Positions 8,391-29,228 are shown, numbered from the stretch's first letter. The stretch is 33,083 bases of DNA from Phycisphaeraceae bacterium (GCA_026126345.1 JAHCJH010000016.1:1-33083), one strand, 5' to 3'. The notes: generated by a model from the sequence alone, not told the origin. Program-made: numbers and translations.

Positions 8391-9254
8391 ATGCGCGCGC
8401 CGCCGCAGGCCGACATCCAACGCTGTGACCTTCCCGCCGATGTGCTGGCGTGGGTCGAGTCGGTGTGCGGACCGGTCGAGCGGATCGTCGACCTGCTGCG
8501 GTACCGCCGGCCCGCAAGCGGTCGCGCAACGCTGAAGGTCGAAACCGCGTCCGGCTGGACGTACAAGGTGCGCCGGTTCGGCAGTGCCTCAGCCGCCGAA
8601 GCGGCCCGCGCCGAGCGCCTGACGTTGAACCCGCCCTGGATGCCCCGCGTGATCGCCTGGCGCGACGACGCCTGCATCGAACGATGGATCGACGGCCAAA
8701 CTGGAGATGAGGCGCCTCTCGAACCAGACCAGATCGAGCGGTGCGGAACGATGCTGCGGCAGGTGCACGATGCGCCGCCGCCCGCCGGAGCCCGGATGCG
8801 CACGCCCGAGCTCTGGGCCGAGCGCCTTCGGGAGAACCTTGGCCGATTGCGGCTGGCCGGCCTGATCGGCGACCAAGCCGAGGCCGAGTGCCTGAAGCAC
8901 GCGATGTCGGACTTTCCCAAAGCGCTGACCATCGGCCTCGTTCACCGCGACCTGTGCCCGGAGAACATCGTGCGCGACGGCGAAGGCCGGCTCTGGGTCG
9001 TGGACAACGCGTTGCTGACCGTCGGATCGCTCGAAGAGGATGCCGCGCGAGTCTGGTGGCGGTGGCCGATGACGCCGCCGCAGCGCGGGGCGTTCCTGCG
9101 CGGGTACAACCATCCGGCACGAGCGTGCTGGTTCGAACTGCCCAGCCCCTTCTGGCGGGCCTCGGTCATCGCCAACTCGGCCAGGATCCGGCTCGGCGCC
9201 GATCCGGCCGGCGCCGCCGCGCGCGCTCAGTGCCTGCTGGAGTCGCTGCGGTGA
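8391..9254 (+). CDS. APH/choline-kinase-like phosphotransferase
   Basis: A 287-residue protein of the aminoglycoside phosphotransferase / small-molecule kinase fold. The Brenner-type catalytic loop is HRDLCPENIV, and the metal-binding Asp follows in LWVVDNALLTVGSLEEDAARV. An upstream N-lobe holds 'TYKVRRFG', with a candidate ATP-binding Lys. The substrate cannot be told; the fold phosphorylates sugars, amino alcohols, antibiotics or other hydroxyl compounds. It starts 33 bp after the mutase stop and its TGA overlaps the GTG of the next gene, so it heads or continues a tightly packed operon with an HprK-related kinase, two oxygenases, a glycosyltransferase and a nucleotidyltransferase. This context points to tailoring of a metabolite or glycan rather than antibiotic resistance. 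Confidence 0.75.
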   Translation: MRAPPQADIQRCDLPADVLAWVESVCGPVERIVDLLRYRRPASGRATLKVETASGWTYKVRRFGSASAAEAARAERLTLNPPWMPRVIAWRDDACIERWIDGQTGDEAPLEPDQIERCGTMLRQVHDAPPPAGARMRTPELWAERLRENLGRLRLAGLIGDQAEAECLKHAMSDFPKALTIGLVHRDLCPENIVRDGEGRLWVVDNALLTVGSLEEDAARVWWRWPMTPPQRGAFLRGYNHPARACWFELPSPFWRASVIANSARIRLGADPAGAAARAQCLLESLR

Positions 9255-10333
9255 GCGGCGCTATCGGTCGGTACGGCCTGGGCGGCGTTCGCGTGGATGT
9301 TCGATCCGATGCGGCGGGCATTCCGCGATGGCTGGACGAGTTCCTGCTCCCGTGGTTCGCGCCCGAACCGGTCGCCGATGAAGTCTGGTCGATCGACGTG
9401 CGCTGTACCCCCCGGGTCCCCGACAAGGTGCACGGCGAGCCTCTGGGCGACATCGACGTGTTCACCCGCGACCGAGGCGCCGAGCGGCTGGCGGCGTGGC
9501 GAGCCGCTGATGCCGTCGTTCTCGCCGACGCACGCGGCCCCACCCAAATCTCCGTGCACACCGCACGCCGCGCGGTCGTCGTCACGATCGACCGCGACGG
9601 CGCCCGACCCCGCTCGCTGGTCATGCGGCTGGTCCGCGAGATCATCTGCCGGCACGGTGCGGCGAAGGGCTGGCTGATGCTGCACGCCTCGGCCGCAGCC
9701 GTGGGAGATCGCGCAGCGCTGTTCCTGGGCGGCAAAGGCAGCGGCAAGACCACGCTGCTGTCCCGCGCGCTGGTCGGAGGTGCGGCATTGGTCGCCAACG
9801 ATCGCGTGCTGGCGAGCGTGGACGACAGCCGGGCACGCATCCTCGGCTGCCCCACGATCGTCCGCGTCCGTCCCGATGGCCCCGCACGCGTGCCGGGCTT
9901 GCGGCCACCGGACTTCGGCGGCGATCATCGGTACTACCTCACGCTCGCCGAGTGCCGCCAGGACGGCCCGCTGCGTGAACCGACCGATCGCGATCCGCCG
10001 TCGATGAGCCCGGCGCAATGCGCCGCGTGGCACGGAGCAGAGGTCCGCACGACAGCGCACCCGGTCGCGTTGGTGTTCCCGCGCGTCGTTCCGGGCGTGA
10101 CGAACTTTCATGTCGAGCCGTTGACGGCAGCCGAGTGCGAGCGGATGCTGCACGCCTGCGTGATCGTGCCCGCATCGGGGACGTTGCTCGGCCGCGGCGC
10201 GGCCCCGGGACCACCGGCGACCATGGACGGCCTGGCCCTCGCCGTGCCCGGGTACCGGCTCGACATGGGGCCGGGGGCCTACGGCCCCGCAGGTGCGTGG
10301 GACGCGGTTGTGGAACTCCTCGCGGCCCGATAG
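9251..10333 (+). CDS. HprK-related (HPr kinase-like) P-loop kinase
   Basis: A 360-residue protein starting at GTG 9251 in a GTGA overlap with the preceding stop; the open frame continues upstream but that part is a shadow. The N-terminal ~130 residues have no clear family. The C-terminal half begins 'WLMLHASAAAVGDRAALFLG' and has the Walker A GGKGSGKTT (160-168). This is followed by LVANDRV (N183, D184), at the place of the LxxDDxV motif of HPr kinase. Such HprK-related proteins recur beside NTP_transf_5 nucleotidyltransferases in exopolysaccharide, HPr-rel-A and some lasso-peptide loci, where they are thought to phosphorylate a peptide or small molecule. There is no HPr, PqqD-like protein or lasso cyclase next to it here, so its substrate is open. 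Confidence 0.75.
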   Translation: MSGAIGRYGLGGVRVDVRSDAAGIPRWLDEFLLPWFAPEPVADEVWSIDVRCTPRVPDKVHGEPLGDIDVFTRDRGAERLAAWRAADAVVLADARGPTQISVHTARRAVVVTIDRDGARPRSLVMRLVREIICRHGAAKGWLMLHASAAAVGDRAALFLGGKGSGKTTLLSRALVGGAALVANDRVLASVDDSRARILGCPTIVRVRPDGPARVPGLRPPDFGGDHRYYLTLAECRQDGPLREPTDRDPPSMSPAQCAAWHGAEVRTTAHPVALVFPRVVPGVTNFHVEPLTAAECERMLHACVIVPASGTLLGRGAAPGPPATMDGLALAVPGYRLDMGPGAYGPAGAWDAVVELLAAR

Positions 10334-10364
10334 GCTTGCCGCGGCTCGAATCTGGAATCAGACT

Positions 10365-11387
10365 ATGCTCGGCACGCTCTGGAACAACCCGCTGACACGC
10401 TCGGCAGCGGCACGAATCGAGAAAGGCCACAACAAGCTCCTGGGAATCCGCCGGACCATGCGGCTGGCCAAGACCCTGAGCAAGGTGCGCAACGCCTCTG
10501 CCTGGCGGGTGCGGCGCGAGCTGTACGACGACCACGTCGACCGGCTGCTGGCCGAGAACGGGCCCGTCGGCAGCGACACGATCGAACTGCGCGACGGTTG
10601 GGCCGTGGACCACAGCAAGTCGCTGCCGCACCTGGAGCGACTGATCGCCGACGCCCAGGAGATCATCAAGGAACGCGGCGGCGTCTTCCGCGGGGGCGGC
10701 GAACGCTCGTTCTTCCAGCAGATCCTCACCGATGAGCACGTCGCACGGTACCCGTCGATCCTCGATTTCGCGACTTCCAACGCCATTCTCGCCCCGGTCA
10801 TGCGCTACATGAAGACCGTGCCGACGCTCTCGGTCTCCAAGCCCCTGGGCGTGCGCCTGGCCGAGAGCGATGCGCGGCTCGCCCCGCCGGACCAGAGAGG
10901 CTACGCCGAGAGCCAGCTCTTCCACCGCGACTACCACGACGACCCCATGGTCTACGTCGTCGTCGCCCTGCGCGACGTCACCCGGCAGAGCGGCCCCTTC
11001 AGCATCCTGCCCGCCTCGGCGTCGCGCACCGTGACCGAGAAGCTCCGCTACGGATCCCGGGGCGTTCCCTACCGCCTGACCGACGACGCGGTGTACTCCG
11101 CCGTCGACCGCTCGGCGCTCTTCGAGTTCGCCTGCCCGGCCGGCTCGGTGCTGTTCGTCGACAGCAGCGCGTGCTTCCACTACGGCAGTCGCGACGCGAT
11201 CATCCCCCGATACCTGATGATGTACGCGTATGTCTCCGTGTGCCGGACGGATTTCGGCGACCTGCTGAGGCCCGAGTGCGAGCGCCCGGTGACCGACGAT
11301 TCGGCCCGCACTCGGCGCGCCAAGTATCCCGTGGGCCCCAACGATTCTCGCCTGCGCCGGCTCGTGCTCGACCGGCATGCGACCTGA
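10365..11387 (+). CDS. Phytanoyl-CoA dioxygenase (PhyH)-like Fe(II)/2-oxoglutarate oxygenase
   Basis: A 340-residue protein starting at ATG 10365 (MLGTLWNNPL); an upstream in-frame start at 10293 would overlap the kinase gene. The iron-binding triad is visible as H187-x-D189 in LFHRDYHDDP and H272 in CFHYGSR, with Arg276 placed to bind 2-oxoglutarate. 'CPAGSVLFVDSSAC' before the distal His is typical of the PhyH fold. The N-terminal ~100 residues are helical and basic and may be a family-specific lid. PhyH-like enzymes hydroxylate acyl-CoAs and many natural-product intermediates using oxygen and 2-oxoglutarate. It lies 31 bp after the HprK-like gene and 35 bp before the Rieske gene, so two oxygenases are paired in one operon. 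Confidence 0.8.
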   Translation: MLGTLWNNPLTRSAAARIEKGHNKLLGIRRTMRLAKTLSKVRNASAWRVRRELYDDHVDRLLAENGPVGSDTIELRDGWAVDHSKSLPHLERLIADAQEIIKERGGVFRGGGERSFFQQILTDEHVARYPSILDFATSNAILAPVMRYMKTVPTLSVSKPLGVRLAESDARLAPPDQRGYAESQLFHRDYHDDPMVYVVVALRDVTRQSGPFSILPASASRTVTEKLRYGSRGVPYRLTDDAVYSAVDRSALFEFACPAGSVLFVDSSACFHYGSRDAIIPRYLMMYAYVSVCRTDFGDLLRPECERPVTDDSARTRRAKYPVGPNDSRLRRLVLDRHAT

Positions 11388-11422
11388 TTCCATCACCAAC
11401 GCCCCGGCCACTGGAGACGCAC

Positions 11423-12655
11423 ATTCTCTCAGCAACTCAGCAGGACGTTCTGACCCGCGTGGGCCCGGGAACACCCATGGGCGCATTGATGCGCCGGTAT
11501 TGGCTGCCCGCCGCGGCGTCTGTGGAGGTCGCCCCGGGCTCGGCCAGGCGAGTGCGCATCCTCGGCGAAGATCTGGTCGTGTACCGCGACACGCAGGGGC
11601 GTGCGGCCGTGATCGACGAGCGGTGCCCGCACCGCGGCACCTCGATGGCCACGGGCTGCATCGACGCCGAGGGCATCCGTTGCCCCTACCACGGCTGGAA
11701 GTTCAACGCCGCCGGTGCGTGCCTGGAGACCCCGGCCGAGCCGGAAGACTCGCCGCTGCGCACCCGCGTGCGCGCCAAGGCCTATCCCGCCGAGGAGTTG
11801 GGCGGGCTGATCTGGCTGTACATGGGTCCGGATCCTGCGCCGTTGCTGCCGCGCTTCGACCTGTTCGTGTGGGACAACTGCGTGCGCGACATCGGCGTCG
11901 CGGACCTGCCGTGCAACTGGCTTCAGATCATGGAGAACAGCGTTGACCCGCACCACCTGGAGTGGCTGCACGGCCACCACCTGGCGCACGTGCGGTCGGC
12001 CAAGGGGCAGGCGGCGCCCACGCACTACCTGCGGCACCACGAGAAAGTAGGGTTCGACGCGTTCGAGTTCGGCATCGTCAAGCGGCGCGTGCTCGAGGGC
12101 GGCAGCGAGGCCGACGACGACTGGACGATCGGCCACCCGCTGGTGTTCCCGGTCATGTTGCGCGTCGGCTCGCACCGCCAGCACCGCATGCAGATCCGCG
12201 TGCCCGTGGACGACACCAACACCCGCCACTACTGGTACGCCTGCTACCAGCCCGCCCCGGGCCAGCGCGTCGAACCGCAGCCCGCCGTCCCGGTCTATCA
12301 GGTCCCCTGGCGCAACCCCGACGGCTCCTACATCGTGCACTTCGTCGACGGGCAGGACATCATGGCCTGCGTTTCGCAGGGTCCCATCGCCGATCGCACC
12401 CGTGAGATCCTCGGCAGTTCCGACGCCGGCATCGCCCTCTACCGCCGGATGCTGCTGGAGCAGGTCGATCGCGTGAGCCAGGGGCTCGACCCGCTCGGCA
12501 CCGTGCGAGATCCCGCGCGGAACACCATCATCGAACTGCCCCAGGAACGCGACAAGTACCGCAAGGGGGGCGCCTTCCTGGGCGAGTCGATCCGGATGGG
12601 CCACGCGCAGTTCAGCCCGCTGAAGGAACGAATCCTCGAACTGCTGAGCGTCTGA
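11423..12655 (+). CDS. Rieske [2Fe-2S] non-haem oxygenase, phthalate 4,5-dioxygenase-like alpha subunit
   Basis: A ~410-residue Rieske oxygenase. The cluster ligands are CPHRG (C68, H70) and CPYHGW (C87, H90). The catalytic iron site is NWLQIMENSVDPHHLEWLH, with D175, H178 and H183 as the DxxHxxxxH ligands. The start is unusual. The family normally begins M-L-S-x...LTRVGPGTPMG, and here 'LSATQQDVLTRVGPGTPMG' is preceded by ATT at 11423, with GGAG exactly 6 bases upstream (11413-11416). No in-frame ATG or GTG lies at the expected place. GTG 11459 would remove 12 conserved residues; CTG 11411 lies in front of the GGAG. I infer initiation at ATT. No ferredoxin or reductase gene is in the window, so electrons must come from elsewhere. 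It sits in the six-gene run, 15 bp before the glycosyltransferase. Confidence 0.85.
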   Translation: MLSATQQDVLTRVGPGTPMGALMRRYWLPAAASVEVAPGSARRVRILGEDLVVYRDTQGRAAVIDERCPHRGTSMATGCIDAEGIRCPYHGWKFNAAGACLETPAEPEDSPLRTRVRAKAYPAEELGGLIWLYMGPDPAPLLPRFDLFVWDNCVRDIGVADLPCNWLQIMENSVDPHHLEWLHGHHLAHVRSAKGQAAPTHYLRHHEKVGFDAFEFGIVKRRVLEGGSEADDDWTIGHPLVFPVMLRVGSHRQHRMQIRVPVDDTNTRHYWYACYQPAPGQRVEPQPAVPVYQVPWRNPDGSYIVHFVDGQDIMACVSQGPIADRTREILGSSDAGIALYRRMLLEQVDRVSQGLDPLGTVRDPARNTIIELPQERDKYRKGGAFLGESIRMGHAQFSPLKERILELLSV

Positions 12656-12670
12656 AATCAGCGCCAACCG

Positions 12671-13810
12671 ATGAACGTGCTCTTCTACTGCCAGCATCTC
12701 TCCGGCACCGGGCACTTCGTGCGCTCGTACGAGATCTGCCGCGCTCTGGCCGAACGGCACGACGTCTGGCTGACCGACGGCGGCCGGCACGTGCCCCGCC
12801 CGGCGCGTCCGCCCCGCATGCGGCTGCTGCCGCTCGAGCGGCTCGCCCGCACCGAGCGGGGTGTCGTCGCGCTCGCCCCGGACAAAGCCGCAGATGAGGC
12901 CTGGACCCTGCGTCGGGCCGCACTGGCCGCGGCAGTGGAGGCCATCCGGCCCGACGCCGTGCTCATCGAGGGGTTTCCGTTTTCGAAGTGGGACCTGCAC
13001 GATGAGGTCTTGGCGCTGCTCGAATCACTGCGCTTTCTCCGGCCAAACGCCCCGGTTTGGTGCTCGCGACGCGACGTGATCCCGCCCGCGCGCGTGGACC
13101 GCGTTCCCGCTGACATTGCCAGCGCCGCCCCCGGTGTGCTGGCCGAGTGGTTCGACGGCGTGCTGGTGCACGGCGACCCGGCTCTGGCCACCATCGAGAT
13201 GCACACGCCGTGGGCCCGGGACCTGCCCGTCCGCGTCGAGTACACCGGGATGGTGTGCGAACGCGTCGACGGCCCGCCGCCCCCGTTGCCGGGCGGCGCA
13301 TCGGACGGTTGCGTGCTGGTCAGCGGTGGCGGCGCGGGCGACGGCCGCCTTCAAGCCGTCGCCGAGCGGGCGTGGCCCCGGGCGCGGGAACACCCGGTGC
13401 TCGCGGGCGCAAGCATGATCGTCTCCGCGCCGCCGTTCTCCGCGAGCGCGGTCGAGTCGACGGCACACGCCGATCGCGTGATCCGGACGCCGTTCGACGC
13501 GGCGTTCGCGGGGTGGATGCGCCGCGCGGCGCTCTCGGTGAGCCACGCCGGGTACAACACCTGTGCAACGGTGCTGGCATCGGGCGTGCGCGCGGTCCTG
13601 GTGCCGCGATCGAACATGAGCGATCAGGTGGCCCGCGCTGCGCTGCTCGCCGAACGGGGGCTGGTTAAGGTCGTGCCGGAAGACGATCTGAACGAGCACA
13701 CCCTGGCGCGGGCAATCCGGCACGCCCTCGACGCCCCCCCCACCACCGGACACGGTGTGAACCTCGACGGCGCCTCCGCCACGGCGCGGCTTCTGGAGCG
13801 CGGACCGTGA
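12671..13810 (+). CDS. COG4671/MurG-like glycosyltransferase (GT-B fold)
   Basis: A 379-residue protein beginning MNVLFYCQHLSGTGHFVRSY. The pattern 'YxQHLxGxGHxxR' is characteristic of predicted glycosyltransferases of COG4671, related to MurG and GT28. The C-terminal Rossmann half contains 'SVSHAGYNTCATVLASGVRA', then 'VPRSNMSDQVARAALLAERG', which is the nucleotide-sugar donor site of GT-B enzymes (gly-rich loop and a DQ pair). No signal peptide or membrane helix is visible, so it should act in the cytoplasm. Neither donor nor acceptor can be assigned. It starts 15 bp after the Rieske gene and ends in a GTGA overlap with the nucleotidyltransferase gene, consistent with glycosylation of the product of the operon. 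Confidence 0.75.
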   Translation: MNVLFYCQHLSGTGHFVRSYEICRALAERHDVWLTDGGRHVPRPARPPRMRLLPLERLARTERGVVALAPDKAADEAWTLRRAALAAAVEAIRPDAVLIEGFPFSKWDLHDEVLALLESLRFLRPNAPVWCSRRDVIPPARVDRVPADIASAAPGVLAEWFDGVLVHGDPALATIEMHTPWARDLPVRVEYTGMVCERVDGPPPPLPGGASDGCVLVSGGGAGDGRLQAVAERAWPRAREHPVLAGASMIVSAPPFSASAVESTAHADRVIRTPFDAAFAGWMRRAALSVSHAGYNTCATVLASGVRAVLVPRSNMSDQVARAALLAERGLVKVVPEDDLNEHTLARAIRHALDAPPTTGHGVNLDGASATARLLERGP

Positions 13811-15021
13811 CCGGTCGCGGGACATCATCCCGGCCGTTGGCGATCCCACCCCCGGACGCCCGGTGCCTGCCCCTGCTGCGGGCCGTGCTGCGGGGCGATG
13901 CCGCCGAAACCGCGCACGCAGCGTCGGCCATGCACCCTGCGCACGCCGAGGCCTGGGCCCGCTACGTCATCGGCCAGCAGGTGGCGCACACCGTGCTGTG
14001 GCTCACGGCCAAGTGGCCGGACGTCCTGCCCGCTTCGGCCGTCGGGATGCTCGCCGCCGAGCGCGAGCGCACCGCGGCGCGGGACCGAGCGCTCGCCCGA
14101 TCGATCCGCGAGGCAACCGCGGCCCTTTCGCAGGCCGGGCTCCAGAGCATGGTCCTCAAGGGCATCCCGATGGCCGAGCGGTACTACGGCAACGCCGCTG
14201 CGCGCCGGACCGCGGACGCCGACATCCTCGTACGCACCGAGTGCGCTGACCAAGCGTTGGCGGTGCTGATGGGCCTGGGTCTACGCCCCAAAGTCCGACG
14301 CGCGAAGCCGACACCGTCCGGACCGATCATCGACCGCCACACGCTGGCCACCGACCACGCGTTCGCCCTGGCACGCGACGAAGTTCGCGTCGACCTGCAC
14401 TGGTGCCTGCGCCGCGCGCCGGGGTATCGCATCGCCGAGGATTCGGTCTGGGCCGGCGCGGTGCGCACCGAGAGCGTCGCGGGCCCGTGCCTGATTCCAG
14501 GCGACGCCCACGCGCTGACACTCCTGTGCATCTCGATCGCCGAGGACATCGGCCGCGGAGCCTGCCGATTGAAGCACGTGGTGGACGTGCGGCAGTGGCT
14601 GGTGACGGTCGGCAGCCGGGCCGACTGGCCGAGCCTGCTCGCGCAGCGGCGCGAGGAACGCACCGAGACCATCGTGCTCAACGTGCTGGCCCTGACGCTC
14701 GACGTGCTGCAGGAGCCCGCGTGCCCGCCCGGGCTGAAGGAAGCGATCGTGGCGGCGGGCAACCGCATCCGGCACCGCTCGCCTCAAGATGCGATCGACC
14801 TCGTTCACACACCGCCCGCCAGTCCGCGGGGCGCCCTGTGGTTCGCGCGGGTGTACCCGCTGTCATTCCGGCGCGACATCCCTTGGGTTCTGCGGCGTGA
14901 CTTCGGGCGCGTGCGCAACTGGTACACGTCGGCGTACCGCGCCGTCCGTTTCTCGGCCCGCCTGGGGTGGCACGGCCTCGTGGCGTCGCGGCGAAAGCCG
15001 CACGGGCAGCCCCCAACGTGA
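13807..15021 (+). CDS. NTP_transf_5 family nucleotidyltransferase
   Basis: A 404-residue protein starting at GTG 13807, which overlaps the glycosyltransferase stop (GTGA). The diagnostic stretch is 'MVLKGIPMAERYYGNAAARR' followed by TADADILV. This is the 'LKG....Y......R..D.D.L' pattern of NTP_transf_5 proteins, with the acidic pair that would bind metal. Downstream, 'DLHWCLRRAPGYRI' and 'ALTLLCISIAEDIGRGACRL' match the conserved helical part of the family. These nucleotidyltransferase-fold proteins repeatedly accompany HprK-related kinases in polysaccharide and peptide-modification loci, but their reaction is not established. It is the last gene of the six-gene run; the opposing tRNA terminator begins about 55 bp later. 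Confidence 0.75.
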   Translation: MTGRGTSSRPLAIPPPDARCLPLLRAVLRGDAAETAHAASAMHPAHAEAWARYVIGQQVAHTVLWLTAKWPDVLPASAVGMLAAERERTAARDRALARSIREATAALSQAGLQSMVLKGIPMAERYYGNAAARRTADADILVRTECADQALAVLMGLGLRPKVRRAKPTPSGPIIDRHTLATDHAFALARDEVRVDLHWCLRRAPGYRIAEDSVWAGAVRTESVAGPCLIPGDAHALTLLCISIAEDIGRGACRLKHVVDVRQWLVTVGSRADWPSLLAQRREERTETIVLNVLALTLDVLQEPACPPGLKEAIVAAGNRIRHRSPQDAIDLVHTPPASPRGALWFARVYPLSFRRDIPWVLRRDFGRVRNWYTSAYRAVRFSARLGWHGLVASRRKPHGQPPT

Positions 15022-15128: not shown

Positions 15129-15202
15129 CACGGGCGAAGGGACTCGAACCCCTAACCTTCTGATCCGTAGTCAGATGCTCTATCCAATTGAGCTACGCCC
15201 GC
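15129..15202 (-). tRNA. tRNA-Arg (anticodon ACG)
   Basis: The 74 bases fold as a full cloverleaf on the minus strand. The acceptor arm is GCGGGCG with CGCCCGT (one G-T pair) and discriminator G. T8-A9 precedes a GCTC D-stem. The anticodon stem/loop is CTGA-CTACGGA-TCAG, giving anticodon ACG. The T-arm is AGGGG-TTCGAGT-CCCTT. CCA is not encoded. A34 would be deaminated to inosine so that CGU, CGC and CGA are read. An intrinsic terminator follows directly. Confidence 0.95.
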
Positions 15203-15254
15203 TCCGTGCGCTCAAGCGTAGAACGGCGGGGGGCTTCGGGCAAGGCCGGCAGCC

Positions 15255-15283
15255 TTGATCGGCGGGCGTCTGGGCTCTACCCT
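15255..15283 (+). promoter_or_regulatory. Candidate promoter of rpsT
   Basis: TTGATC (15255-15260) and TACCCT (15278-15283) are spaced by 17 bases, about 75 bp before the rpsT start. The -35 box matches the sigma70 consensus well and the -10 box partly. It faces away from the tRNA gene, leaving a leader of about 70 bases. Confidence 0.35.
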
Positions 15284-15308
15284 TGACACCTTGACGCCAG
15301 ACGTCAGG

Positions 15309-15326
15309 CCGGGCCTCACGGCCCGG
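15309..15326 (+). promoter_or_regulatory. Leader hairpin upstream of rpsT
   Basis: A perfect 7-bp stem (CCGGGCC/GGCCCGG) closed by a TCAC tetraloop lies 32 bases before the S20 start codon, inside the predicted leader and ahead of the GGAG site at 15344-15348. It has no T-tract, so it is not an intrinsic terminator. Ribosomal-protein leaders often carry autoregulatory structures, and S20 is translationally autoregulated in E. coli, but no S20 contact can be shown here. Confidence 0.35.
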
Positions 15327-15358
15327 GAGTTTCCCCGACACGCCGGAGTTTGGACGAC

Positions 15359-15655
15359 ATGGCTCACTCTCTGTCCGCCAAGAAGCGCATCCGCCAGAAC
15401 GCCAAGCGCAACGCCCGCAACCGCTGGCGCAAGGACACCATGCGTCTGGACGTCAAGACGTTCACCGACAAGCTGCTCCACGGCACGTTGGACGAGGCCA
15501 AGGCCGCCTTCAAGGCCGCCGCGCGCACCATCGACCGCACCGCTCAGAAGGGCACCATCCACAAGAACCAGGCCGCCCGCCGCAAGAGCCGCATGATGGC
15601 CCGCCTCAAGGCCCGCGAGAAGAGCGGCCAGACCGGCGCTCCCGCCAGGAAGTAA
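15359..15655 (+). CDS. rpsT: 30S ribosomal protein S20
   Basis: A 98-residue, strongly basic all-helical protein starting MAHSLSAKKRIRQNAKRNAR, the standard S20 N-terminus. The typical C-terminal helix 'KGTIHKNQAARRKSRMMARL' is present. S20 binds 16S rRNA early in assembly of the 30S subunit. The length is slightly above the usual 85-90 residues because of a short Gly/Ala/Lys tail. ATG 15359 is chosen: it matches the family start, and GGAG lies about 10 bases upstream. An in-frame TTG at 15350 is too close to that site. The gene stands alone behind its own candidate promoter and a leader hairpin. Confidence 0.97.
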   Translation: MAHSLSAKKRIRQNAKRNARNRWRKDTMRLDVKTFTDKLLHGTLDEAKAAFKAAARTIDRTAQKGTIHKNQAARRKSRMMARLKAREKSGQTGAPARK

Positions 15656-15697
15656 GCCAGCCGGCCTGTTGTTCGGGGGCCGGGCCCGGGTTCGCCC

Positions 15698-16513
15698 ATG
15701 ACCAGACCGCTGAAGCGAGCACGGACGCGGCCGGGTGCGCGTCGCGGCGATCATTACACCCACGCCGCCGACAACTACTGGTCGCTTTCGACCCGCCCGC
15801 TGCACGCGCTGGCGATCAGCTCGTTCCTGGTGCTGGTGTACGAGCTCTGCTCGCTGCTGTACCTCACGGACCTGCAGCACGGCCAGATGCGGACGATCAA
15901 GGCCAAGAACCTCCTGGCCGACTTCATGCAGACGTTCGGGGTGGTCGGCCTGCTGGCGCCCGGCGTGGCGCTGCTGGTCATCCTGCTCATCTGGCACATC
16001 CTCAGCCGTGACGCCTGGCACATCCGCCCGCTGGTGCTGCTGGGCATGGTCCTTGAAGCGGCGATCTGGACCTTTCCGCTGCTGGTCTTCGGCGCGCTGC
16101 TCAAGCAGGCGTCGAGCGCCCTTGGCCTCTGGGCGGCCGCCGATCCGCCCGGGGTCGAACTGATGGAACTGAGCTGGCCCGCGCGAGCCACGATCTCGCT
16201 CGGCGCCGGGCTGTACGAGGAACTGCTGTTCCGGCTTGTGGCGATCGCGCTGCTGCACTTCGCGATGCGCGACGTGCTGCGCCTGCACGAAACGGCGTGC
16301 AGGTGGATCGCCGTGGTCGGCTCGGCCCTGGCGTTCGCGCTCTACCACCGCGTCACCCTCGCCGGCGGCGAGATCAACTGGCCGGCCGTGGCGTTCTACT
16401 TCGGCGCCGGTGTGTACTTCGCGCTGCTGTACCTGTCGCGCGGGTTCGGCATCGCCGTGCTCACCCACGCGCTGTACGACGTCGCCGTGCTGGTGATCCT
16501 GCGGCCGAACTGA
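15698..16513 (+). CDS. CPBP-family intramembrane glutamic endopeptidase
   Basis: A 271-residue membrane protein with about seven hydrophobic helices after a ~40-residue basic, cytoplasmic head. The CPBP (CaaX protease / Abi) motifs are visible. Motif 1 is YEELLFRLV, giving the EExxxR pattern with the catalytic Glu pair. Motif 2 is FALYHR, with His. Motif 3 is THALYDVAV, with His and Asp. Such proteases cleave within or near the membrane and are linked to protein processing or bacteriocin immunity, but the substrate here is unknown. It lies 42 bp downstream of rpsT and only 3 bp before birA, so it may be transcribed with both. No strong ribosome site precedes ATG 15698. Confidence 0.85.
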   Translation: MTRPLKRARTRPGARRGDHYTHAADNYWSLSTRPLHALAISSFLVLVYELCSLLYLTDLQHGQMRTIKAKNLLADFMQTFGVVGLLAPGVALLVILLIWHILSRDAWHIRPLVLLGMVLEAAIWTFPLLVFGALLKQASSALGLWAAADPPGVELMELSWPARATISLGAGLYEELLFRLVAIALLHFAMRDVLRLHETACRWIAVVGSALAFALYHRVTLAGGEINWPAVAFYFGAGVYFALLYLSRGFGIAVLTHALYDVAVLVILRPN

Positions 16514-25686: not shown

Positions 25687-26724
25687 TTACTGGACCTGCC
25701 CGTCCGATTCGCCCCCGGCCGTTGCACCGGCTCCCGCTCGGTCATCGCCCCCGCTCCGGGCCCGGCGCACCGCCAGCCACGCTGCCGACGCCAGGCCGAT
25801 CGGCACCGAGCAGACGATCTCCGCGGCACGGTTGATCAGGTCCGCCAGCAGTCCGTGCGTCATGCCCGGCAACGCCCCGCCGCCGATGCCGAGCACGCCC
25901 CCCACCGCCGTCATCGCCCCGACGATCCACTCCCGCACGCCCAACTGCACCGGCAGCAGCCCCGCCACCTGGCTGGCCACCACGATCACGCCCAACTGCC
26001 ACAGCGCCACCGGGTGGTCGATCGTCTCGAACACCAGCCAGTATCGCGCCGCCCACACCATCATCTCCAGGTACCGAAGCGCCCCAGCCAGCATCAGCGC
26101 CCGCACGGCCCCGGCCCGCTCTGCCGCCGCGCTGTCGGCCGCACGCGCCGGGTGGGAGCCCAGCGCCAGCATCATGCACGGCGGCAGCAGGCACAGGACC
26201 ACCGCTGTGCCGATCAGCAACGGCTCGCCAAGCCACCCCGTGGCGCCGATGCCCGCGATCGCGATGCACACCACCGCCAACATGCACGCCACCATCGCCG
26301 TCACGGCGATGACCTGCAGCAGCACTTTGGCAGAGTCGCGCACCGCGATCCCGTGCACCGCCTTGTGGTACGCCACCCGTCCGAACAGCCCGGGCCGCAT
26401 CGGCAGCAGGTTGAACAGCCAAGCCGCCCCCACCAGCGCCGCCATCTCCGCCGCCCCCACCGGGCCCAGCCGGCGCGTCAACAGCCAGAACACGGCGCTC
26501 GTCAGCACCCAGTTCACCACCGGCAGCAGCGCCACGCCGACGACCATCGCCGCCGGCGCCGCCCGGATCGACTCGACCGCCCGGCCCACCAGTCCCTGCT
26601 GCCGCCACACAGCCCACACCGCCAGCACCAGCAGCGCCACGCCGACCGCGTACCACGCGGCCCGGGCCCGTCGCCGCCGCGCGGCCCGCGCCACCTCGAC
26701 GCCCTGGGCCGTCACCCCGTTCAC
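25687..26724 (-). CDS. Flippase-like LPG_synthase_TM (UPF0104-type) integral membrane protein
   Basis: A 345-residue protein with eight or nine membrane helices. 'AWLFNLLPMRPGLFGRVAYH' corresponds to the NxxLPxRxGE-type loop of the lysylphosphatidylglycerol synthase transmembrane family, and 'GLLPVQLGVREWIVGAMTAV' to its second conserved re-entrant loop. Proteins of this fold flip or transfer lipids or lipid-linked saccharides; no catalytic domain is attached here. The start is GTG 26724, which overlaps the stop of the upstream TPR gene (GTGA), so the two are translationally coupled. The Gly/Ala-rich tail after the last helix is probably disordered. The family call rests on topology and loops, so it is moderate. 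Confidence 0.65.
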   Translation of the reverse strand: MNGVTAQGVEVARAARRRRARAAWYAVGVALLVLAVWAVWRQQGLVGRAVESIRAAPAAMVVGVALLPVVNWVLTSAVFWLLTRRLGPVGAAEMAALVGAAWLFNLLPMRPGLFGRVAYHKAVHGIAVRDSAKVLLQVIAVTAMVACMLAVVCIAIAGIGATGWLGEPLLIGTAVVLCLLPPCMMLALGSHPARAADSAAAERAGAVRALMLAGALRYLEMMVWAARYWLVFETIDHPVALWQLGVIVVASQVAGLLPVQLGVREWIVGAMTAVGGVLGIGGGALPGMTHGLLADLINRAAEIVCSVPIGLASAAWLAVRRARSGGDDRAGAGATAGGESDGQVQ

Positions 26725-29228
26725 CGGGCCCCGCTCAGCGTCAGCGTGTTCAGGCGCGAGTACCCCCGCGCCCCGGCCTTGAGCCGCTCGCGAATCGTCG
26801 CGCCCGTCGCCTTGACGGCCTCATCGCCCGATGCCGCGGCGGCGTCGAGCATCGCGTTGTCCGGCTCGTCGGCGCGGGTAACGAGTTTGGCCACGAAGAC
26901 GTCCGGGTCGGTCTCCTGAATCGGGCGCAGCGCCCGGTCGAACACCAGCATGCCCGGCTCGCGCCGCCCCGTGGGCAGGCCGGTGAGCATCACCAACCGT
27001 CCGACGGATCCCTCCCGCTGATACCGGGCCAGCAGCGCGGCGCCGAGTCGAGCGAATTCGTCGGGCGTGAGCTTGGCCTGCACGCCCGACACAACCCCCA
27101 GCGCCCGCACCCGCACGGCCGCCACGACGTTGACCAGGTCGTCGGCCGACGCGCTCTCGATCGCGGCGATGATCGATTCGAGCGTGCCCTCGGCCCCGGA
27201 CGGGCCCAGCCGGACAACACCGGCCGTCTCGGTCGAGAGCCCCAGGCCGCTCGCCCGGCTCGCCCCCATCGCGTCCACCCGGAAGCCCTGCTCCAAACGC
27301 CAGCGGACCCGCATCGGCAGGTTCGACACCTGCTCCAGGGCCCAGCCGCCGTAGCCCGGCTCCGCCCAGATGGTGACCACCATCTCCTCGCGCGGCATCA
27401 GCCGGAGCCGCCGGTCCAGGTTGATCACTTCGGGCGCCGCGACCGACGCCACGTCGACGCCCGGCGCTGAGGCGCTGGGCGCCATCAGGAACCGGGAGTT
27501 GATCGTCCGGTCCGGACCGACCCCCAGCGCGATGGGCGAGGTGTTGCGCAGGCGGACCGTCAGCAGCGCCTTCTCCCCGGGGTTCAACTCGGCCGGCGCT
27601 ACCGACGCCGACAGCACCTCGAACCGGCGCGGGTTCACCGCCATCTCGTCGATCCAGGCCGGGATGCCCGACGCCATGGCGTCCAGGCGCGCCGCAGACT
27701 CCGAGGGCTTGATGTCACCGCCGAGCGCCGCCGCCTTGGTTCTGGCCCACGCGCCCAGCAAACCGCCGGGGGCCGACCGCCAAGCGTCCGCGTAGATCTT
27801 CGCCGCGCCGGCCGCATCGGACCGAGCCTCGGCCGCCAGCCCCAGGCCGATCCGGGCCAGCACGCTGCTCTCGGCCAGCGGCTTGAGCGCCGCGTCGGCG
27901 TCTTCGACCTTGCCCTCGCGCAGCAGCAGCAAAGCCCGCAACGTCGGCTCGTCGTCGATCGGCCCGGCCCGGGCCAGGTCGTCGAGCTGCTTGGCGGCCT
28001 CCTCGGTCTGCTTGCCCGTCAAAAGTCGCATTCCCAGCAGCTCACGATCCCAGAACGAAAGATCGGCCTTGATCCGCTCTTCGCTGGCGCCCTGCGGACG
28101 CTTGGCGGGGTCGGCCGCCTGGTCGCGCAGGTTCGTGACCGACCCGGCCAGATCGGCAAGCGACGCCGCTTCCGTCTCTGCGTCGCCGCTGGCGTTGGCC
28201 GCCACCAGACGGACCACCTCCACGTCCAGCGCGACGCGAAGCGACGCCGGCTCGGGCCGGTTCCGCAGCGGCACGCCCAACTCTTCGGCCCGCTTGCGCG
28301 CCGCCTCCGCCGCACCGCGCTGCCGGCTCAGGCTGCTGTTCACCTCGCTCAGCACGCCGTCGGCGCCCTCCACCAGCCACTGCTGCGTCATGCGCCCGGC
28401 GATCACGTCCAGGTCCAGCCGCCGCTGCAGCAGGTCGGAGATCTTCGAGGCGTTTCGGTAGTACCGGAGCGACGCGGCGTGCGCCCCGCCCAGCGCCAGC
28501 TCCCGCGCCAGCGTCTCGTGATACACCGGGTCAGTCGGGTCCGCGTTCATCAACGCGATCAGCGTTTCGACCCGCGCCTGCGGATCGTCCACGCGCTGCG
28601 AGAAGAACGAATAGGCCAGGGCCGCCGCGTCCTTGTTCGTCGGGTCGAGCCGCACCGCCAGCCGCAGGCGGTCCACGAAACCGTCCGCGTCGCCGTTCTC
28701 GCGCAGAAGCAGCGCCGCGTCCAGCGCGAGCCTGCTGCGGATCGACGCGTCGATGGTCTCGCCCCGCGGCCCCAGGAAGTTGTCGTACAGCGCCAGGCGC
28801 GCCCGCACGTCCTGCGCCCTGTCGATCTGGGCGCTGATGAGCCGCAACTGGGCGACGGTGTCGTCGGGCCGCAGCCGCAGCAGGTCGCGCGTCAGCGCGA
28901 TCACCCGCTCGCGGTCGCCGCCCTGGACGGCCGCGTCGATCGCCAGCCGGACCAGGTCCTCGTCGTCCGGCGTCAGGCGCAGCGCCGCGCCCAGCAACCG
29001 CTCGCACACGCGGTAGTCGGCCGACGTGGGGTTGTCGATCGCGCGCAGGTCCACCAGCGCCAGCCGCGCCACGCCCACCGCCGCGCTCCGCACCGCACGG
29101 CTCGGCGCCGCCGCCGGCGCGCCGGGCTGAGCCTCGCCCCAACCGGGAGCCGACACCGGCGAACCCACGACGGCGACCAGGGCCGCCGCGCCCGCAACCA
29201 CCGCACGCGTGAACAGTCTGGGGCTCAA
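26721..29228 (-). CDS. Secreted TPR-rich protein of unknown function
   Basis: An 835-residue protein with a cleavable-looking signal peptide (basic start, hydrophobic AVVAGAAALVAVVGSPVSA, then Ala/Pro-rich mature end). About residues 45-560 are helical TPR-like repeats, for instance 'LGAALRLTPDDEDLVRLAID' and 'RDLLRLRPDDTVAQLRLISA'. A beta-rich region follows ('LNPGEKALLTVRLRNTSPIA', 'NSRFLMAP'), reminiscent of an immunoglobulin-like or CARDB-type segment, and then a short helical end. I infer TTG at 29228 as the start. It gives the signal peptide, overlaps the preceding stop as TTGA, and has GGAG 7 bases upstream. The role is unknown; coupling to a flippase-like protein and a small membrane protein suggests an envelope complex. 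Confidence 0.7.
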   Translation of the reverse strand: MSPRLFTRAVVAGAAALVAVVGSPVSAPGWGEAQPGAPAAAPSRAVRSAAVGVARLALVDLRAIDNPTSADYRVCERLLGAALRLTPDDEDLVRLAIDAAVQGGDRERVIALTRDLLRLRPDDTVAQLRLISAQIDRAQDVRARLALYDNFLGPRGETIDASIRSRLALDAALLLRENGDADGFVDRLRLAVRLDPTNKDAAALAYSFFSQRVDDPQARVETLIALMNADPTDPVYHETLARELALGGAHAASLRYYRNASKISDLLQRRLDLDVIAGRMTQQWLVEGADGVLSEVNSSLSRQRGAAEAARKRAEELGVPLRNRPEPASLRVALDVEVVRLVAANASGDAETEAASLADLAGSVTNLRDQAADPAKRPQGASEERIKADLSFWDRELLGMRLLTGKQTEEAAKQLDDLARAGPIDDEPTLRALLLLREGKVEDADAALKPLAESSVLARIGLGLAAEARSDAAGAAKIYADAWRSAPGGLLGAWARTKAAALGGDIKPSESAARLDAMASGIPAWIDEMAVNPRRFEVLSASVAPAELNPGEKALLTVRLRNTSPIALGVGPDRTINSRFLMAPSASAPGVDVASVAAPEVINLDRRLRLMPREEMVVTIWAEPGYGGWALEQVSNLPMRVRWRLEQGFRVDAMGASRASGLGLSTETAGVVRLGPSGAEGTLESIIAAIESASADDLVNVVAAVRVRALGVVSGVQAKLTPDEFARLGAALLARYQREGSVGRLVMLTGLPTGRREPGMLVFDRALRPIQETDPDVFVAKLVTRADEPDNAMLDAAAASGDEAVKATGATIRERLKAGARGYSRLNTLTLSGAR

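Follow-up and report, generated by a model that had tools for sequence, protein, structure and literature searches.

We have analysed a stretch of 33,083 nt from a Phycisphaeraceae bacterium (GCA_026126345.1; hereafter the window), in which six open reading frames on the + strand form a compact cassette at positions 8391-15021. In order, these encode an APH-type small-molecule phosphotransferase (8391..9254; Pfam APH 61.5 bits, cut-off 23.2), an HprK/PEPCK-fold kinase (9251..10333; weak NCBIfam matches and a predicted fold), a PhyH-like Fe(II)/2-oxoglutarate oxygenase (10365..11387), a phthalate-dioxygenase-like Rieske non-haem iron oxygenase (~11423..12655; Pfam Rieske 78.2 bits), a GT28/COG4671-type (MurG-like) glycosyltransferase (12671..13810; Pfam Glyco_tran_28_C 48.1 bits) and an NTP_transf_5 nucleotidyltransferase-like protein (13807..15021; Pfam PF14907 112 bits). 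Counting from the acyl-CoA mutase gene that precedes the APH gene, the intergenic gaps are 33, -4, 31, 35, 15 and -4 bp, the 35 bp ahead of the Rieske gene being measured to a probable ATT start at 11423, and the overlaps at 9251-9254 and 13807-13810 are exact GTGA sequences. A codon-usage caller trained on these genes and iterated returned the same six, with zero overlapping antisense rivals; six same-strand genes with gaps of at most 35 bp and two GTGA overlaps is also what the first-pass annotation had described. Its family calls find support as well: APH, Rieske, the GT28 C-terminal domain and NTP_transf_5 all score above their Pfam cut-offs, the HprK call is backed by the predicted fold, and the PhyH call by an orthologue and an intact motif. 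The catalytic motif HRDLCPEN is intact in the APH protein, whose orthologues are 28-34% identical, and the KG and DxD motifs are conserved in the NTP_transf_5 protein.

The best NCBIfam match of the HprK-like protein is FomB (1e-8), the phosphonate monophosphate kinase of fosfomycin self-resistance, which phosphorylates a small molecule, as the window protein would; this match covers only the nucleotide-binding part, at 34.6 bits against a cut-off of 400. The match to HprK_rel_B (9e-8) is also under its cut-off, and on the TIGR04352 and TIGR04355 models the protein scores 17 (17.2, HprK_rel_A) and 32 bits, where the cut-offs are 200. An AlphaFold model of moderate confidence (mean pLDDT 62.6, the kinase core mostly 70-90) matches PEPCK and HprK/P with a Foldseek probability of 1.00, and a Walker A sequence GGKGSGKT (160-167) and an ND-R-V segment (183-186) are conserved. 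The modelled fold, the P-loop and the conserved acidic segment thus place the protein in the predicted HprK/PEPCK-fold class. Sequence identity is only 24-33% even between cluster members. PDB profile searches using the HprK, PhyH and NTP_transf_5 alignments gave no clear match, and a scan of the genome collection queried by the single HprK protein returned zero matches, which probably reflects a scarcity of conserved stretches in this protein.

In the Rieske protein the motifs CPHR, CPYHGW and NxxDxxHxxxxH are intact, providing the CxH/CxxH cluster ligands and the N-x2-D-x2-H-x4-H arrangement of the class, and the closest solved structures are of the phthalate 4,5-dioxygenase type. The gene has no ATG, GTG or TTG where its homologues start (region 11423-11480); an ATT sits at 11423, and the next ATG, at 11477, would remove about 18 conserved residues. 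The ATT is likely either the real start or an assembly error. The PhyH protein reaches 14.6 bits in the window against a Pfam cut-off of 22, whereas its orthologue in the planctomycete genome G418 reaches 23.8, and the HxD...H...R motif (H187xD189 ... H272) is intact. The PhyH gene of another genome, G549, matches across two reading frames (L046:1069-2012), which suggests a frameshift or a sequencing error.

The right-hand boundary of the cassette region is a tRNA-Arg(acg) gene on the - strand (15129..15202; ARAGORN/Rfam and synteny in relatives), which with the genes for S20 and CPBP forms a block conserved in the family (15129-16513). Upstream of this tRNA each of the seven relatives examined carries different genes, with the mutase and the cassette both missing. 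Synteny shows the region beside tRNA-Arg(acg) to be a variable site, with the cassette as its content here. The cassette is not set apart from its surroundings by G+C content or composition, so a compositional signal of a recent island is lacking, and a search of the window found neither a repeat copy of the tRNA 3' end nor an att-like repeat; for these reasons no attachment site is claimed. Elsewhere in the window, a minus-strand protein of 826 residues (26721-29201), near a DUF444 protein and Rho, has no Pfam match at 1e-5.

Recurrence within the phylum was assessed in 343 genomes, mostly of draft or MAG grade, comprising the window's own (G000) and 342 others. Close glycosyltransferases (E<1e-50) and close Rieske proteins (E<1e-100) occur in exactly the same four of these (G000, G392, G478 and G549), each from another family; the chance of this 3/3 coincidence in 342 genomes is 1.5e-7 on the assumption, not fully true, that genomes are independent. 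Full-length HprK relatives are present in 4/343 (G000, G015, G478 and G549), as are close PhyH relatives (G000, G015, G549 and G418), the latter in all cases together with other pathway genes. Within the taxonomic order to which the window's genome belongs, the HprK-like protein was found in one other genome of 150, G015, where the locus also encodes PhyH and NTP_transf_5, and where APH and HprK are fused in one protein of 666 residues. APH is fused N-terminal to HprK in the same way in G478, where the fusion lies inside 6 kb with NTP_transf_5, the glycosyltransferase and the Rieske protein (60% identical). Five of the six genes are together in the distant planctomycete G478 and in the gammaproteobacterium Haliea, four are present in G015, and G549 has all six, spread over three contigs. 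The first-pass annotation had named at least four of the six genes in distant genomes as support for a system, and this is the case in G478, Haliea, G015 and G549. Such co-occurrence supports the view that the six-gene putative operon belongs to one system. Neither a Rieske homologue nor a close glycosyltransferase was found in G015 in the phylum searches, so the gene set appears to be modular and not fixed.

A Rieske alignment scan over 84,980 species genomes yielded 79 loci, against which the cluster proteins were searched with tblastn. Linkage was detected in Planctomycetota, in Xenococcus (Cyanobacteriota) and in Haliea, Thioalkalivibrio and other Gammaproteobacteria. Taking all searches together, conserved combinations are carried by G478, Haliea, G549, G015, G392, Xenococcus, Thioalkalivibrio and others. 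The cluster was absent from Rieske loci further removed (in Pseudonocardia, Bacillaceae and others), where the only matches were generic ones to ALDH and ABC proteins. The Haliea locus (L067) consists of APH, a block of NTP_transf_5, HprK and an ABC exporter, and a block of dehydrogenase, fusion protein, Rieske and glycosyltransferase, together with a radical SAM gene, and the glycosyltransferase adjoins the Rieske gene in several further genomes from three phyla. The ten cluster-bearing Rieske proteins, which include orthologues 58-68% identical to the window's, form a single clade (support 95/89) over Planctomycetota, Cyanobacteriota and Pseudomonadota, within which the planctomycete G478 copy nests among gammaproteobacterial ones (100/98). 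This placement suggests horizontal transfer, and the cluster has probably spread horizontally to reach its sporadic distribution. No close homologue of the amidohydrolase::ALDH fusion described below was found in plasmid records.

In other genomes two genes, one for a LeuB-like dehydrogenase and one for a cysteine amidohydrolase fused to an aldehyde dehydrogenase, stand directly before the Rieske-glycosyltransferase pair, or adjoin APH-HprK. The amidohydrolase part keeps the D-K-C triad of the isochorismatase family, its nearest PDB entries being cysteine hydrolases of that family, biuret hydrolase included, and the ALDH part is closest to ketoglutarate-semialdehyde dehydrogenases. Conserved linkage shows a predicted core that runs from a LeuB-like beta-decarboxylating dehydrogenase through amidohydrolase::ALDH and Rieske to GT28, and these four, linked across phyla, would define a new cluster family. 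In the window's own genome (86.5% complete, 253 contigs) the cluster is split, with the dehydrogenase and the fusion on other contigs: each half of the fusion is cut short by a contig end, one on C219 and the other on C49, the dehydrogenase lying beside the half on C219, and we infer that the halves are one gene split by assembly. Their neighbours are housekeeping genes (GAPDH, SecA), so the pathway probably lies in at least two places in this genome, as it does in G478 (contigs C11 and C13).

A HemN/STM4012-like radical SAM enzyme usually accompanies the core; seven of the Rieske-clade genomes have a protein of this STM4012/HutW type, 49-67% identical, and no cluster-type homologue was found in the window's own incomplete genome. 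Linkage to an MsbA-like exporter occurs in G015, in a Planctomycetales genome and in Haliea. The cassette had been described as lacking a scaffold enzyme and a transporter; the former is correct for the cassette itself and not for the pathway, given the dehydrogenase and fusion linked elsewhere and present here on C219 and C49, and the latter does not extend to related loci, where the exporter recurs. The suggestion that the acyl-CoA mutase supplies a building block was not supported: the mutase is missing from every related locus and was rejected as a cluster member, its 33-bp proximity being local. Among the loci scanned, NRPS-like proteins (A-T-TE, A-T-C-TE) adjoin pathway genes only in G015 and G418 (L023:15701-18352 and L203:11622-16076). 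Other neighbours recur too. A Methyltransf_24 protein paired with a protein of 350-365 aa is common to two planctomycete clusters (L045:2531-5588 and L057:2329-4094); in L045 the latter has weak RimK/ATP-grasp similarity and the pair adjoins an STM4012-type radical SAM gene. A family of about 290-320 aa with no confident Pfam match also recurs by the cluster (L023:13752-15682 and L057:13200-14060), with two copies in G015.

HprK/APH and cluster-type NTP_transf_5 (E<1e-100) are co-present in the same 5/13 genomes (G000, G015, G478, G549 and Haliea) and absent from 8/13, a count in which the two genome lists differ by one genome, one listed genome (a Nitrospirae sister) has the Rieske gene but none of the other cluster genes at that locus, and the absence of HprK from G418 is taken from the phylum search. 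This pattern shows APH, HprK and NTP_transf_5 travelling as a separate module, optional across lineages. A second, diverged NTP_transf_5 gene lies outside the cluster in the window's own genome (L024, G000:C177, ~34590-35189).

On balance we favour an undescribed gene cluster for a specialised metabolite, with the cassette encoding its tailoring steps. The core enzymes would make or oxidise a small scaffold of amide or carboxylate type and link a sugar to it, the Rieske enzyme hydroxylating this scaffold, PhyH possibly adding a further hydroxyl and GT28 acting as the glycosyltransferase. APH and HprK would most likely phosphorylate one or two hydroxyls, and NTP_transf_5, by analogy with PsmK/PsmN, would put a glycosyl or nucleotidyl group on the new phosphate; such capping is its most likely role given one lasso-peptide precedent, to which the sequence link is at the family level only. 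An MsbA-type exporter, found beside pathway genes in several genomes, may secrete the product. The first-pass annotation had proposed a single system for phosphorylation, hydroxylation and glycosylation, and co-occurrence supports this, with the activities read from the protein families. A bolder version, which we put forward tentatively and regard as rather improbable as a whole, is a new class of secreted small molecules in at least three phyla, for the most part made with no PKS, NRPS or RiPP genes as scaffold builders. An APH-HprK double kinase would phosphorylate a hydroxyl on these molecules, and NTP_transf_5 would cap the phosphate with a glycosyl or nucleotidyl group; if true, this would mean phosphoglycosylation outside lasso peptides.

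Other readings of the same genes were considered. HprK and NTP_transf_5 might modify a lipid-linked sugar to which the MurG-like glycosyltransferase adds another sugar before an MsbA-like ABC protein flips it, so that the cassette would decorate a surface glycan or glycolipid. The GT28 and MsbA-like families are indeed present, three more glycosyltransferase genes (GT2/GT92 families) lie beside the G478 cluster, and some exopolysaccharide loci are annotated with HprK-related and NTP_transf_5 proteins, a link that we could not confirm in the open-access literature. However, the genes annotated in related loci do not include a polymerase, a priming transferase or a PqqD partner, and the LeuB-like dehydrogenase, amidohydrolase::ALDH, Rieske and PhyH partners are unusual for glycan assembly, which makes this reading unlikely. 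We consider slightly less likely still a catabolic or detoxification operon, in which amidohydrolase::ALDH, dehydrogenase and Rieske enzyme degrade an aromatic or amide compound and the kinases and glycosyltransferase inactivate it. The relatives of the Rieske protein, the ALDH and the amidohydrolase domain named above all lend themselves to such a role, but the core or recurrent genes include those for a glycosyltransferase, a radical SAM enzyme and an ABC protein of the export type, NRPS genes adjoin in two genomes, and the loci scanned showed no ring-cleavage genes.

The tailoring set of paeninodin and pseudomycoidin, an HprK-like kinase, a nucleotidyltransferase and an ABC exporter, invites the idea of a RiPP or lasso-type pathway whose peptide, encoded at a distance, is modified by HprK and NTP_transf_5. 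This is improbable, since no lasso precursor, B1/B2 protease, C cyclase or PqqD was found among the annotated genes of the cassette or of the related loci scanned, and the gaps of at most 35 bp in the window operon leave no room for a conserved small ORF. Least credible is that unrelated genes came together by chance at a variable site next to a tRNA: although the site varies among relatives and G+C content does not distinguish the cassette, the recurrent linkage in distant phyla, the domain fusion, the GTGA overlaps and the single Rieske clade all speak against it, and recurrence already refutes it. Under the specialised-metabolite reading, six genes that looked like a curiosity of one genome become part of a defined gene-cluster family with a clear enzyme inventory in three phyla. 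This reading points to a planctomycete and gammaproteobacterial metabolite family whose core clusters are for the most part without the usual scaffold genes, and offers a route to the function of NTP_transf_5, labelled 'uncharacterised' in Pfam, outside lasso peptides.

In the open-access literature we found no description of this gene combination or pathway, nor of the APH-HprK and amidohydrolase::ALDH fusions, and the nearest known systems each share part of it. Phthalate 4,5-dioxygenases have the Rieske motifs, iron ligands and nearest structures in common with the window protein which, unlike them, sits in a separate cluster-tied clade with no phthalate genes seen nearby. HPr-rel-A and HprK-related loci (TIGR04352, TIGR04355) combine an HprK-like kinase with NTP_transf_5 in one locus, as here, but HprK_rel_A is below its cut-off and a PqqD-like partner is missing from the operon and from the annotated genes of related loci. 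In pseudomycoidin, as reported for PsmK/PsmN (PMC8498205), an HPr-kinase homologue sets a phosphate, which then receives one or two hexoses from a protein annotated as a nucleotidyltransferase. The cassette holds this pairing of HprK-fold kinase and nucleotidyltransferase, and the pseudomycoidin and paeninodin loci (K, N and ABC transporter D), like the related loci here, bring the two together with an ABC exporter (PMC8498205). The partners differ, being in our case APH (sometimes fused), Rieske, PhyH, GT28, a LeuB-like dehydrogenase and amidohydrolase::ALDH, whereas the order of events that we propose, the kinase acting first and the phosphate-modifying transferase second, is that of pseudomycoidin and paeninodin (PMC8498205).
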